The position numbers and the translations under genes are program-made. 64,000 bases of DNA from IMG/VR virus record IMGVR_UViG_3300020178_000002, positions 186,001 to 250,000 of that record; one strand, 5' to 3'. How positions within the stretch are numbered: position 1 is the stretch's first letter; each line of letters starts with the position of its first letter. The notes beneath the pieces are model-generated. The model was not told the origin of the DNA, searched no databases, and saw only the letters and a program-made list of their open reading frames with translations. Shown one piece after another: positions 37,259 to 49,762 of the stretch. This DNA is from a virus.

Positions 37259-38074
37259 ATGTTAGATACATTCGGATACCACCACACTTTATTAAAAGCT
37301 CGAGAGTTCTTCCTATCAAAAGGACTTATCGAAGTACCTGTTCAATCAAGACTTTCTATTCTCGCTGCTTGCGAAGATCCAAAAACAGTCAGAACTTTTG
37401 AATATGATAACATTATTTGGCCTCTTCCCCAGACTGGTCAAATGTGGCTTGAGCATGAATTGTTAAAAAACCCGACACAAGTTGGGTTTTTTTGTGTCTC
37501 CACATCATACAGAAATGAGCCAAACCCTATACCAGGTCGTCATGAAAAGATCTTCCCAATGCTTGAGTTTGAAATGAAGGGTAATCAGGAAGACCTTATT
37601 CAGTTTGAAATCGACTTTGTTGAGTTTTTACTTGGTGAGAAGTCTATTGAAGTAGACTATGAGGACATGAGTGCAAAGTATGGTGTTTCTATTTTAGAGA
37701 ATGAGCATGAGGAGCAAATCTGCAAAGACCATTCTGCTTCTACTATCCTAAAAGATTTCCCTAGAAGAACCAGCCCTTTCTGGAATATGAGAAGACATGA
37801 TGGGACAAAAGAACACTACAAGAAAGTAGATGTTCTTATTGATGGTATTGAAACCATAGGTTCAGCAGAGAGAGCAGTAAGTGTTGAAGAAATGAAAGAG
37901 GACTTCTACACAATTTCTGATGGTGAATATGCAGAGCTTCTATTTGAGAAGTTTGGCAAAGAGCGTGTAGAAGCAGAACTTAATGAGTATCTATCAAACG
38001 ATTTCTTTGAGCGTTTTGGTGGTGGTATTGGCATGACCAGATTAGCTCAAGCATATAACAGAAGATTCCTCTAA
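37259..38074 (+). CDS. Class II aminoacyl-tRNA-synthetase core of AsnRS/AspRS type (asparagine synthetase-like)
   Basis: The protein is the catalytic core only. Motif 2 is STSYRNEPNPIPGRHEKIFP (Arg of the flipping loop plus acidic residues). Motif 3 is FERFGGGIGMTRL, with Arg. GSAERAVSVEEM also resembles the AsxRS family. There is no N-terminal OB-fold anticodon-binding domain, and 271 residues is far shorter than AsnRS (about 430-460). Archaeal relatives of this form make asparagine from aspartate (AS-AR type); other short paralogues adenylate amino acids for other acceptors. A metabolic or protein-modifying role is thus more likely than tRNA charging. An intrinsic-terminator-like hairpin lies inside the gene (37465), and a palindromic operator upstream. 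Confidence 0.85.
   Translation: MLDTFGYHHTLLKAREFFLSKGLIEVPVQSRLSILAACEDPKTVRTFEYDNIIWPLPQTGQMWLEHELLKNPTQVGFFCVSTSYRNEPNPIPGRHEKIFPMLEFEMKGNQEDLIQFEIDFVEFLLGEKSIEVDYEDMSAKYGVSILENEHEEQICKDHSASTILKDFPRRTSPFWNMRRHDGTKEHYKKVDVLIDGIETIGSAERAVSVEEMKEDFYTISDGEYAELLFEKFGKERVEAELNEYLSNDFFERFGGGIGMTRLAQAYNRRFL
37465..37493 (+). terminator. Intragenic terminator-like hairpin in the AsnRS-like gene
   Basis: AAAAAACCCGAC pairs with GTTGGGTTTTTT (one G-U) around ACAA, followed by more T: the shape of an intrinsic terminator about 205 bases into the coding sequence. It encodes KNPTQVGFF, a conserved stretch, so it may be a by-product of codon choice or an attenuator. Confidence 0.4.
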
Positions 38075-43252: not shown

Positions 43253-43825
43253 ATGAGAGTTATTGTAGAGGGGTTGATTGGAGTAGGCAAAAGCACATTC
43301 ACAACGGAGTTTGCAAGAATACATAAGCTAAACCCAATGTATGAGTCTGTTGATGATAATCCTTTTCTCTCAAAGTTCTATTCAGACCCAGAGAGATGGG
43401 CTTACACTCTTCAAATGCATTTCCTCTACGACAGATACTCAAAGCACCTTCCAGAGAACATCATCTTAGACAGGTCTATCTGGGGTGACCTTTGCTTTGC
43501 AAACATACTAAGAGAAGATGGTACTCTGACAGAAGAAGAGTATGAGTCTTATTTGAGCCATTCAAAAGTTTTAACAAACCATGTCCCTAAAGTAGACTTG
43601 TGTATACACCTTGATGTACCTGTCTATAAAGCAATGGACAGGATTAGTAAAAGGGGGAGAGGTTTTGAGACTTCTATTTCAGAAGATTACTTGGTTAGGC
43701 TCAAGAAAGAAATAGACTCACTCCCCTCTTTCTTACCCTCTGACATTAAGTATGTTAAAATTGATTGGGAAGACATGAGCCTAGATGAAATATCTAGATA
43801 TATTTCAAATATAGATTTAAAATAA
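43253..43825 (+). CDS. Deoxynucleoside kinase
   Basis: Phosphorylates a deoxynucleoside to its monophosphate, feeding dNTP synthesis. Seen: P-loop EGLIGVGKST (6-15), LDRSIWGD (the ERS/DRS substrate motif), and the LID/Arg region RISKRGRGFE. Length 190 matches bacterial/phage dNK (about 200-220). SD AGGAGG precedes the ATG. Its 3' end overlaps the opposing methyltransferase-locus frame by 9 bases. Specificity (dA/dG/dC/T) cannot be read. Confidence 0.9.
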   Translation: MRVIVEGLIGVGKSTFTTEFARIHKLNPMYESVDDNPFLSKFYSDPERWAYTLQMHFLYDRYSKHLPENIILDRSIWGDLCFANILREDGTLTEEEYESYLSHSKVLTNHVPKVDLCIHLDVPVYKAMDRISKRGRGFETSISEDYLVRLKKEIDSLPSFLPSDIKYVKIDWEDMSLDEISRYISNIDLK

Positions 43826-45355
43826 GGATACTTGACCTTTCTCATCTAGCTTTAGTCTTTCTTCTTTATATATTTCGCAGCTATTTTCGTTTACTTGTTC
43901 CCTTAAGTTTGAAGGTGCTGATCTGCCTTTCCTCGTTGTATTCGCTTGTCTTCTTAGTGCTTCATCAGACCTTAAAGGTAAGGAATCCATAGTGTTAGGG
44001 GTTGCCCATATAGATTCCTCTATATCTACACCCCTCTCCTCAGCTTCAACTTGAACCTGTAGAGTAGGTGCGAAGGTCTCTTTGCCCTGCTCTAAGCGAC
44101 TCTTCATTCTTGAGATATAATGACGTAGGTTCTCACCCCTCTGTGAAGCTGGAGGAGTTGACCAATTCTCTCCATAAATCAACGAAGGCTCTTCTTGCAG
44201 TATCTGGAACAACTCCATTTCCAAGCATTCTGAGCTCATCCGTTCTATTATCAAAGGACTCGTACAGCTTGGTTGCACCCACCCTATTGGAAGCCCCATC
44301 AAGGTCTCTACCCACCTCGGGTTCAACTTCATTGCAGCGTCCTTGCCCATGCTCACACGATCTGCGAAGTTCAGAGAGTGTGACTCCCCCACCCCTTTCG
44401 CTTTCCTTCGACCCGTCATTGTCAGAGTTATCTCTTTGTGGTGTATTTCCTGCGTTGTTGGAGTTGGCCACCCATATAAAGGGATGCTCGCTTCCTTCTC
44501 TTGAGTCTCCTTCAGGAGATCCTGATATATCTCTATTGCGTGAGGGTTCACCTGCTCCCGTAGATTGCCTGGATGGGAGCGTCTTTTCCTCCCCCCTGCT
44601 CTTGCTAGTCTTCTCAATGCCTCGTCGCTCCTCTGGTCTAGATGATCGAGAGTATTGGGAGTCCCCCAGAGTGACTCTTGGAGGCTCCCATGAGTATTGG
44701 TCTCTTCCTCTTGAGGATGGGTATATAGAGCCACTTGTGTCTCGGTTTCGGTCAAGGAGTCCATTGACCCATTCCAAGCTTTCTCTTTCGGTACCTCTTT
44801 TAATACCAAGAATGAAGACTCGCTTCCTTCTATGTGGAGCACCGACTTCTCTCGCTGAGAATATACCTGCCGTTGCTTCGTAACCCACCCTCTCCAATTC
44901 TCTAAGAACATGGAGCAAAACCGATGTTCCTTTTGGATCTGACCAATCATCTGATTTGAGTTCTGCTGAGAGGATTCCTTCGACATTCTCAAGGAAAATA
45001 ACGGAAGGTTGAGATACTTTAACTCCTCTGATGATATGTGGGAAGAGGTGTCTTGGGTCTGAGTCTGCTTTTCTTTTTCCTGCTGAACTAAAGGGCTGAC
45101 AAGGGAAGCCTCCTGACAAGATATCCACTTTTCCACGAAAGATTTCCCAGTCGAGGGTTTTAAGATTCGACCAGATAGGTGCTGGCTCAATAAACCCTTT
45201 TTCCATCTTTGCAACCAAGTTGCAGATTGGGAAGCTTTCGATCTCCACATAAGTGATTGTTCTGACATCTCCGAGAGCTTTTTTAAGTCCGATGTCGATT
45301 CCCCCATAACCTGCACAGAGTGATAGGTGTTTAAGTTCTTTGGTACTATCCACAT
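43817..45355 (-). CDS. Second long frame through the cytosine methyltransferase gene, with MTase-associated motifs
   Basis: Frame open for 512 codons, overlapping all of dcm (44133-45353) in the +1 frame and running 316 bases past its stop. It starts ATG at 45355, six bases from AGGAG. It holds motifs I recall from phage C5-methyltransferase-linked proteins: YGWPTPTTQ and LNPRWVETLMGLPIGW, read from the same bases as EPEVGRDLDGASNRV in the dcm frame. Two copies of a block WxTPNTxDxLxxRSDEALRR...NLREQVN...EIY occur, one inside the overlap and one (SIWATPNTMDSLPLRSDEAL) mostly beyond it, which argues for selection on this frame. It could be a separate protein or the C-terminus of a frameshift product. 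The first ~170 codons look less protein-like. Confidence 0.6.
   Translation of the reverse strand: MWIVPKNLNTYHSVQVMGESTSDLKKLSEMSEQSLMWRSKASQSATWLQRWKKGLLSQHLSGRILKPSTGKSFVEKWISCQEASLVSPLVQQEKEKQTQTQDTSSHISSEELKYLNLPLFSLRMSKESSQQNSNQMIGQIQKEHRFCSMFLENWRGWVTKQRQVYSQREKSVLHIEGSESSFLVLKEVPKEKAWNGSMDSLTETETQVALYTHPQEEETNTHGSLQESLWGTPNTLDHLDQRSDEALRRLARAGGRKRRSHPGNLREQVNPHAIEIYQDLLKETQEKEASIPLYGWPTPTTQEIHHKEITLTMTGRRKAKGVGESHSLNFADRVSMGKDAAMKLNPRWVETLMGLPIGWVQPSCTSPLIIERMSSECLEMELFQILQEEPSLIYGENWSTPPASQRGENLRHYISRMKSRLEQGKETFAPTLQVQVEAEERGVDIEESIWATPNTMDSLPLRSDEALRRQANTTRKGRSAPSNLREQVNENSCEIYKEERLKLDEKGQVSLF
44133..45353 (-). CDS. dcm: DNA (cytosine-5) methyltransferase, 406 aa
   Basis: C5 methyltransferase transferring a methyl from S-adenosylmethionine to cytosine, probably for protection against restriction. 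Motif I LSLCAGYGGIDIGLKKAL, motif IV GGFPCQPFSSAGKR with catalytic Cys, motif VI ENVEG, motif VIII RRKRVFILG, and C-terminal motif IX/X region ELRMLGNGVVPDTARRAFVD are all present. Between VIII and X is a long hydrophilic variable region (residues ~205-370), the target-recognition segment, rich in Arg/Ser/Glu. GTG start eight bases from AGGAG; an ATG two bases earlier opens the other frame. Length is normal. The variable region is shared with the overlapping 43817-45355 frame. Confidence 0.93.
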   Translation of the reverse strand: MDSTKELKHLSLCAGYGGIDIGLKKALGDVRTITYVEIESFPICNLVAKMEKGFIEPAPIWSNLKTLDWEIFRGKVDILSGGFPCQPFSSAGKRKADSDPRHLFPHIIRGVKVSQPSVIFLENVEGILSAELKSDDWSDPKGTSVLLHVLRELERVGYEATAGIFSAREVGAPHRRKRVFILGIKRGTERESLEWVNGLLDRNRDTSGSIYPSSRGRDQYSWEPPRVTLGDSQYSRSSRPEERRGIEKTSKSRGEEKTLPSRQSTGAGEPSRNRDISGSPEGDSREGSEHPFIWVANSNNAGNTPQRDNSDNDGSKESERGGGVTLSELRRSCEHGQGRCNEVEPEVGRDLDGASNRVGATKLYESFDNRTDELRMLGNGVVPDTARRAFVDLWRELVNSSSFTEG

Positions 45356-45411
45356 TAATTTCTCCTATAATAACATGCTACACTTATATATTATACCTAA
45401 ACCCCCCAGAC

Positions 45412-48737: not shown

Positions 48738-49712
48738 CTATGCTGTGATTTTATCCCAATCCCACTCGCCCGAAAGACCATTATTTGAATAATCTGAGAC
48801 AACCCCCTCAAAGAAGTTCTTAAAGCTATCACCACTTACGACCCAATCGAGCCATTTTAGGGGATTATTTTTCTGACCGAAGACAGGTTTGAGTCCGAGT
48901 TGTAGGAGTCTTCTATCTGCAAGGTATCGAACATAAGTCTTAACCTCTTGAGAGGTGAGACCTTGAAGTTCTACACCTTGGAAAACAAGATCTACAAGAG
49001 CATCCTCAAGCTCAACGGCTTTTTCATAGTTTGTGTAGATGTAGCTCTTGAGCTTATCTGTCACAACTCTGGGGTGTTCCTTGCAGTATTCCTGAAAGAG
49101 CTTAGTCATACCTTCTACATGAGTGCTTTCATCTCTAATGCTCCATTCAACAATCTCACACATGCCTTTCATCTTCCCAAAGCGTTGGAAGTTGAGCAGC
49201 ATAACAAAAGCAGAGAAGAGACTCATGCCCTCATTGCAGACAGAACGTGCAAGTTCAAATGCAAGGTGAGTGGCCTTCCCCAGACCCTCAGGAGCTTCTG
49301 TCATGAATTCAATCTTCTCACGCATCTCATCAAACTTGAGAAATGCGGAGTATTCTTTTTCTGCAAGACCCAGAGTATCATTAAGTAAAGCATATGCTCT
49401 CTGGTGAGTACCCTCTCTATTTGCGAAAGAGAGAAGCATATTCCTAATCTCATTGTTCTTAAACTCTTTAATAAAAACATCACAGTAGTTGCCACCGACT
49501 GCAACATCACTCTGGGTGAAGATTCTTAGGATTTGAGTAATGAAATCTCTTTCTTGGTCTGTAAGACCTTGACCTTTCCATTGGTTTACATCATCTTGAA
49601 GCTTTGCTTCCCAAGTACCCCAATGGATTTTTTCATGTTCTTCACTGATCTGCATAGCCCAAGGGTATTGGAATGGTTTAAATGCTTTACTGAAACTTGT
49701 TAATCCTGACAT
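48738..49712 (-). CDS. nrdB: Ribonucleotide reductase beta subunit (class I)
   Basis: Provides the radical to NrdA for making deoxynucleotides. I chose the ATG at 49712 (AAAGGA upstream). Diiron ligands and radical Tyr are present: D69 in FTQSDV, then REGTHQRAY (Glu100, His103, Tyr107), then RSVCNEGMSL and RDESTHVEGM (Glu and Glu/His ligands). The length (324) is normal. The C-terminal end NNGLSGEWDWDKITA replaces what may have been an older end now found at 47127. Its leader contains several hairpins, a TTACCT site and a possible broken small ORF. Confidence 0.95.
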   Translation of the reverse strand: MSGLTSFSKAFKPFQYPWAMQISEEHEKIHWGTWEAKLQDDVNQWKGQGLTDQERDFITQILRIFTQSDVAVGGNYCDVFIKEFKNNEIRNMLLSFANREGTHQRAYALLNDTLGLAEKEYSAFLKFDEMREKIEFMTEAPEGLGKATHLAFELARSVCNEGMSLFSAFVMLLNFQRFGKMKGMCEIVEWSIRDESTHVEGMTKLFQEYCKEHPRVVTDKLKSYIYTNYEKAVELEDALVDLVFQGVELQGLTSQEVKTYVRYLADRRLLQLGLKPVFGQKNNPLKWLDWVVSGDSFKNFFEGVVSDYSNNGLSGEWDWDKITA

Positions 49713-49762
49713 ATATCTTTTCCTTTTGATGAACACAGCTCAAAACAAAGCTGCTTAATACT

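Follow-up and report, generated by a model that had tools for sequence, protein, structure and literature searches.

A phage C5-cytosine methyltransferase predicted to be split between two overlapping reading frames of one gene

The dcm locus described here is best explained as encoding a split C5-cytosine methyltransferase with predicted activity, one gene giving both chains through two reading frames; we hold this reading to be about 87% probable. Frame A, the α chain, would fold as a catalytic domain with motifs I–VIII, an unstructured stretch and motif X, and frame B, the β chain, would bring in tandem modules that begin with W.TP as well as motif IX, i.e. the small-domain elements that α is without. 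A single Shine-Dalgarno sequence would serve both chains, initiation at an ATG giving B and initiation at a GTG two bases further on giving A. We infer that both chains are translated and associate with each other, such that target recognition and motif IX would be supplied by B, and SAM binding and catalysis by A. The assembled enzyme would methylate phage DNA, most likely as an escape from host restriction, a presumed role that follows from the usual function of phage methylases. Each chain would carry a useless translation of the region that belongs to the other.

Two reading frames in one locus

The window, by which we mean the whole stretch of 64,000 nucleotides that was analyzed, is part of a 312 kb virus record, and the features of the locus are collected in Table 1. 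Frame B spans all of frame A and then runs on for 105 codons past the dcm stop; its first, second and third codon positions coincide with the second, third and first positions of frame A, respectively (B1 = A2, B2 = A3, B3 = A1). A preliminary description of this DNA had noticed that dcm and the +1 frame are both open, that EPEVGRDLDGASNRV in dcm and LNPRWVETLMGLPIGW in the other frame are encoded by shared bases, and that this also holds for LGDSQYS and WGTPNTLD. These readings were confirmed. What the description missed is the identity of the second frame, which supplies motif IX and putative recognition modules that are absent from the dcm frame.

The start context ATGTGGATA is found in 41 of 54 non-redundant relatives. 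Downstream, a deoxynucleoside kinase gene is convergent with frame B, the 3' ends of the two overlapping by 9 bases. The ribonucleotide reductase small chain and the tRNA synthetase-like protein encoded elsewhere in the window are typical of large phage; no tRNA gene was found within the window.

Table 1. Features of the dcm locus and selected neighboring genes, in coordinates of the window
Feature	Position	Strand	Basis
Frame A (dcm), α chain, C5-cytosine methyltransferase, 406 aa, GTG start	44133–45353	-	PF00145, E 6.6e-37
Frame B, proposed β chain, +1 frame, 512 aa, ATG start, stop at 43817	43817–45355	-	
ATGTG, overlapping starts (ATG of B, GTG of A)	45351–45355	-	sequence
GGAG, Shine-Dalgarno-like, common to both starts	45362–45365	-	inferred from spacing
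Frame A motif IV, catalytic Pro-Cys-Gln (A residues 84–86)	45096–45104	-	invariant in alignment
Frame A residues 209–368, predicted unstructured filler	44250–44729	-	AF2 and A3/A1 substitution ratio
Frame B putative recognition module 1, WGTPNTLD...LREQVNP (B residues 230–295)	44471–44668	-	
Frame B putative recognition module 2, WPTPTTQEIHHKEIT... (B residues 296–343)	44327–44470	-	
Frame B putative motif IX, LNPRWVETLMGLPIGW (B residues 344–359)	44279–44326	-	
Frame A motif X, ELRMLGNGVVPDTARRAF (A residues 373–390)	44184–44237	-	invariant columns; AF2 about 93
Frame B tail past the dcm stop, with most of two further W.TP modules	43820–44134	-	
Deoxynucleoside kinase gene	43253–43825	+	PF01712, 3.1e-38
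Ribonucleotide reductase small chain	48738–49736	-	
Class II tRNA synthetase-like protein	37259–38074	+	

Both frames are under selection

A search of viral contigs with frame B yielded at least 590 related stretches, the best 80 of which formed a first set of relatives (54 of them non-redundant). In these best 80 of at least 590, and in phage C75C1, the dcm homology has the same frame offset from B, and the two frames stay open for about 290–580 codons, except for two loci with a broken frame A. Because this set was seeded on frame B, the openness test was repeated from frame A with a second set of 80 loci seeded on dcm motifs: a B-type motif IX occurs in the +1 frame in 62 of the 80, and frame B is open up to motif IX in 61. 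The relatives thus keep both frames, and the alternative that homologues would keep just one open while the other collects stops was examined and failed.

When the dcm codons of the window were shuffled synonymously, frame B acquired 7.6 stops on average, and none of 3000 shuffles left it stop-free. Over the 54 non-redundant relatives, synonymous shuffling predicts 438 stops in frame B and 0 are observed, a count biased by the choice of region, which ended at frame B's own end; the unbiased version therefore covers A codons 1–185 of the dcm-seeded relatives (77 loci), where 2 stops are observed versus 237.9 expected. The third frame of these loci has 617 stops over the same codons versus 657 predicted, and six ordinary phage methylases, used as controls, show no deficit (99 stops versus about 104 predicted). 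Reciprocally, shuffling the B codons synonymously in the recognition region leads one to expect 314.8 stops in frame A, where there are 0. With stop deficits in both directions, both frames are held readable by selection, and there is strong support for the earlier suggestion that one stretch has been maintained as coding sequence in both. The exceptions, L077 and L064, have several frame A stops after motif VIII, across the recognition-module region, with frame B open; L077 keeps motif X downstream in frame A despite the interruption. Both may have recently gained modules in which frame A is not open.

Since the sequence pairs used for substitution rates are not independent, these rates serve as contrasts and not as formal tests; over motifs I–VIII, the A3 rate is 0.484 at 50–60% identity versus 0.63 in control genes of the same loci, and 0.115 versus 0.231 at identities of at least 90%, with first-position rates similar to those of the controls at 50–60% identity. 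In the WATPNTMD module, the commonest one of the variable region, the B3/B2 ratio rises from 1.9 at 50–60% identity to 7.1 at 90–99%. The A3/A1 ratio in the 3' part of frame A is about 1 at 20–60% identity and drops below 1 among the small number of pairs that are most alike. In the tail of frame B, the window and L003, its closest relative among the matches listed, differ at 15, 11 and 48 positions in B1, B2 and B3, respectively, as in a normal gene. The main coding frame is A over motifs I–VIII and B over the variable region, and the best-coding frame changes from A to B near codon 185.

It could be reasoned that frame B is not translated and passively echoes the conservation of dcm, codon use being biased, given that frame-shifted readings of conserved proteins resemble each other and that A constrains B. 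However, B avoids stops relative to synonymous shuffles, has a third-position excess in the variable region and coding-type substitutions past the dcm stop, and control methylases have normal stop counts. Such an echo is refuted by the shuffles, the codon-position rates and the control genes, and we give it practically no credence.

Motifs and modules of the two frames

By computation, motif IX is found in B only and motif X in A, and the modules are folded in B and absent from A. Frame A carries motifs I–VIII and X, of which I, IV (PCQ), VI, VIII and X were located in order from the PF00145 match and invariant columns. In its AF2 model, only residues 1–205 and 370–400 have high confidence, and Foldseek matches M.HaeIII/M.HhaI over about 180–190 of 327 residues. 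Residues 209–368 score below 50 and are without secondary structure; we propose, on the basis of this model, that they are a wrong-frame reading of the recognition modules of B. In the model of frame B, scores exceed 90 over most of both WATPNTMD-type modules and are about 74–83 in the motif IX helix. The first 130 residues, mostly of low confidence, may be a merely tolerated lead-in.

Searched separately, frame A matches PF00145. Frame B has no domain match in Pfam, NCBIfam or the PDB, and in PHROGs it matches phrog_1008 ('DNA methyltransferase', 1.8e-6) and unnamed families only. Foldseek gave no usable structural match for frame B in the PDB or BFVD, as half of the model is of low confidence; accordingly, the module fold is either new or too small to detect.

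A pattern search found no canonical motif IX in frame A, which does not combine this motif with the others in the same chain as a monomer would. The pattern is insensitive, matching one of six ordinary methylases, so that the case is built on the B-type motif, single-chain relatives and the alignment to HhaI. Judging by its sequence, LNPRWVETLMGLPIGW of frame B is motif IX. Bacterial genomes and viral contigs were scanned with a DNA pattern for LNPxWVExLMGxP that is blind to dcm, and of the 216 matches listed that have a detectable dcm, 209 have the motif in the +1 frame relative to it (bacterial, 108 of 110; viral, 101 of 106). In a single-chain relative, L398, PF00145 extends over residues 2–333, and LNPDWVEWLMGYP stands directly before motif X in the same frame, aligned with M.HhaI 270–318; L216 resembles it in having motif IX in the same frame as dcm. 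The local alignment of motif IX to HhaI is weak when taken alone (5.7–6.0 bits) and in the right place, for which reason the assignment draws on position and on the single-chain relatives.

These rare relatives, in which motif IX shares a frame with the catalytic part, and the switch of the best-coding frame near codon 185 could also point to one chimeric enzyme made by programmed frameshifting, in which translation would begin in A, cross to B once past motif VIII and maybe return for motif X. We consider this unlikely: frameshifting does not call for an open upstream part of B, where 2 stops occur versus 238 expected; B has its own conserved ATG, and in Shelly-type genes it starts internally. 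Moreover, motif X lies in A in 178 scanned cases and in B in 8 (among the matches listed), so most genes would need two shifts. The preliminary description had left a choice between a separate overlapping protein and an alternative C-terminus reached by frameshifting. The former fits, since B has its own ATG and is open from the first codon in the window's branch; the latter does not, given the unneeded openness upstream and the internal starts.

The split methyltransferase would draw its specificity from the W.TP modules, its putative target-recognition domains. Each frame B contains 2–11 segments starting with W.TP, and the modules, of about 30–65 residues each, are arranged in tandem. As single-linkage clustering merged everything, a stricter clustering was used in its place, and it recovers the same module types at varying ordinal positions and in varying orders in different phages. 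That nearly every member of the B-seeded set has the WATPNTMD module is in part an ascertainment effect, because this peptide was a search seed. In 12 pairs, modules are at least 85% identical while the catalytic parts are less than 60% identical, and between the window and L003, module 1 has been replaced as a unit by an unrelated module with the flanks conserved. These swaps look like an exchange of target-recognition domains. The window has two more modules after motif IX, essentially past A, an arrangement that few relatives share; they comprise B residues 398–449 and 450–490, the second being a WATPNTMD paralogue of module 1. More tentatively, and with less than even confidence, we suggest that the specificity of a large class of phage and prophage 'Dcm' enzymes might reside wholly in a hidden, unannotated second frame of interchangeable cassettes, and that the extra cassettes past the catalytic gene in the window's branch might be additional or reserve specificities that enter the overlap by recombination.

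Known systems and distribution

The β gene of M.EcoHK31I reportedly lies inside the α gene in another frame, as Lee and colleagues are said to have described in 1995, and the window's putative β gene likewise overlaps its α gene in another frame. In M.EcoHK31I (YGGCCR), α contains motifs I–VIII and X, and motif IX alone is found in the small subunit (PMC3404938). By motif layout, the window's enzyme is alike, with I–VIII and X in α and motif IX in a second polypeptide. Unlike in M.EcoHK31I, frame B of the window begins 2 bases upstream of A, spans A completely, exceeds it in length and has extra modules past the α stop; furthermore, the literature places the predicted TRD of M.EcoHK31I in α, whereas the selected variable-region modules of the window are in B. 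M.AquI (CYCGRG) is split after motif VIII, its β chain comprising the distal variable region and motifs IX and X (PMC3404938). The window shares with it a second chain with variable region and motif IX, and differs in that motif X lies in A, not alongside motif IX in β. An AquI-like build was observed in L179, L182, L313 and L326, where A ends after motif VIII and B has motifs IX and X, the two overlapping in two frames.

The multispecific C5-methyltransferases of the Bacillus phages SPR, phi3T and rho11s are single chains in one frame, with tandem modules between motifs VIII and IX that have been swapped between phages. The window resembles them in its several tandem, exchangeable modules and differs from them in that these lie in a second frame.

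In ShiLan, a hidden HNH homing endonuclease is inserted in a phage methylase gene (PMC11855218). The window likewise has a second frame within such a gene, but frame B is without HNH, overlaps the whole gene where ShiLan has a removable insertion, and supplies a missing enzyme motif. Given that phage methylases are known to harbor out-of-frame elements (PMC11855218), and that B is joined to a PD-(D/E)XK domain in L012, B could be thought of as an independent overprinted protein unrelated to methylation, such as a homing endonuclease or an anti-defence factor. We find this very improbable, as B carries motif IX, which is absent from A, overlaps all of A and is no removable insertion; frame B has no HNH or other nuclease match in Pfam or PHROGs. 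In L012 (3001–6204), B runs in frame past the dcm stop into the nuclease-like domain (PDDEXK_1, 1.4e-05); this open frame has 1067 residues, and fusion, read-through or assembly error are all possible.

The two-frame arrangement that we ascribe to a split methyltransferase recurs across hundreds of further phages and prophages of bacteria, including phages of Salmonella, Klebsiella, Acinetobacter, Pseudomonas, Stenotrophomonas, Paenibacillus, Bacteroides and Synechococcus as well as a prophage of E. coli PT62 (L418). Frame B starts at or near the A start in some lineages and near codon 55 in others, and in the scanned cases among the matches listed, it has no stops between codon 67 and motif IX. 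Some records name frame A alone (S9-5, ABMM1, E. coli PT62), others frame B alone, as hypothetical (Ssp-JY39, phPA-G). PHROG 1008 represents the same B protein, gp56 of Paenibacillus phage Shelly matching phrog_1008 at 8.2e-74; the Shelly record names both frames, with B annotated without a role as 'g55 internal gene' and, unlike in the window, starting inside dcm at codon 62. A literature search, mainly of freely accessible papers, found no description of such an arrangement in phages.

So far, split, dual-coded methyltransferases have passed for an oddity confined to one or two restriction systems. Our analysis suggests instead that split dual-coding is a common build of phage and prophage C5-methyltransferases, and that most annotated records examined show half the enzyme. 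If so, these genes would be inactive or non-specific when expressed as annotated, the annotated protein would not allow their targets to be predicted, and the peculiar low-complexity 'variable region' seen in many phage Dcm proteins would be recognition modules read in the wrong frame. As a natural example of dual-frame selection, the arrangement is also very large, extending through several hundred codons, and the dominant frame changes halfway along.

Among plasmids, a search with frame B recovered two Paenibacillus plasmids only. In the methylase of P. polymyxa plasmid pAP1 (L088, CDS 1056–2546), motif IX occurs twice in the +1 frame, with about 70 residues between the copies.
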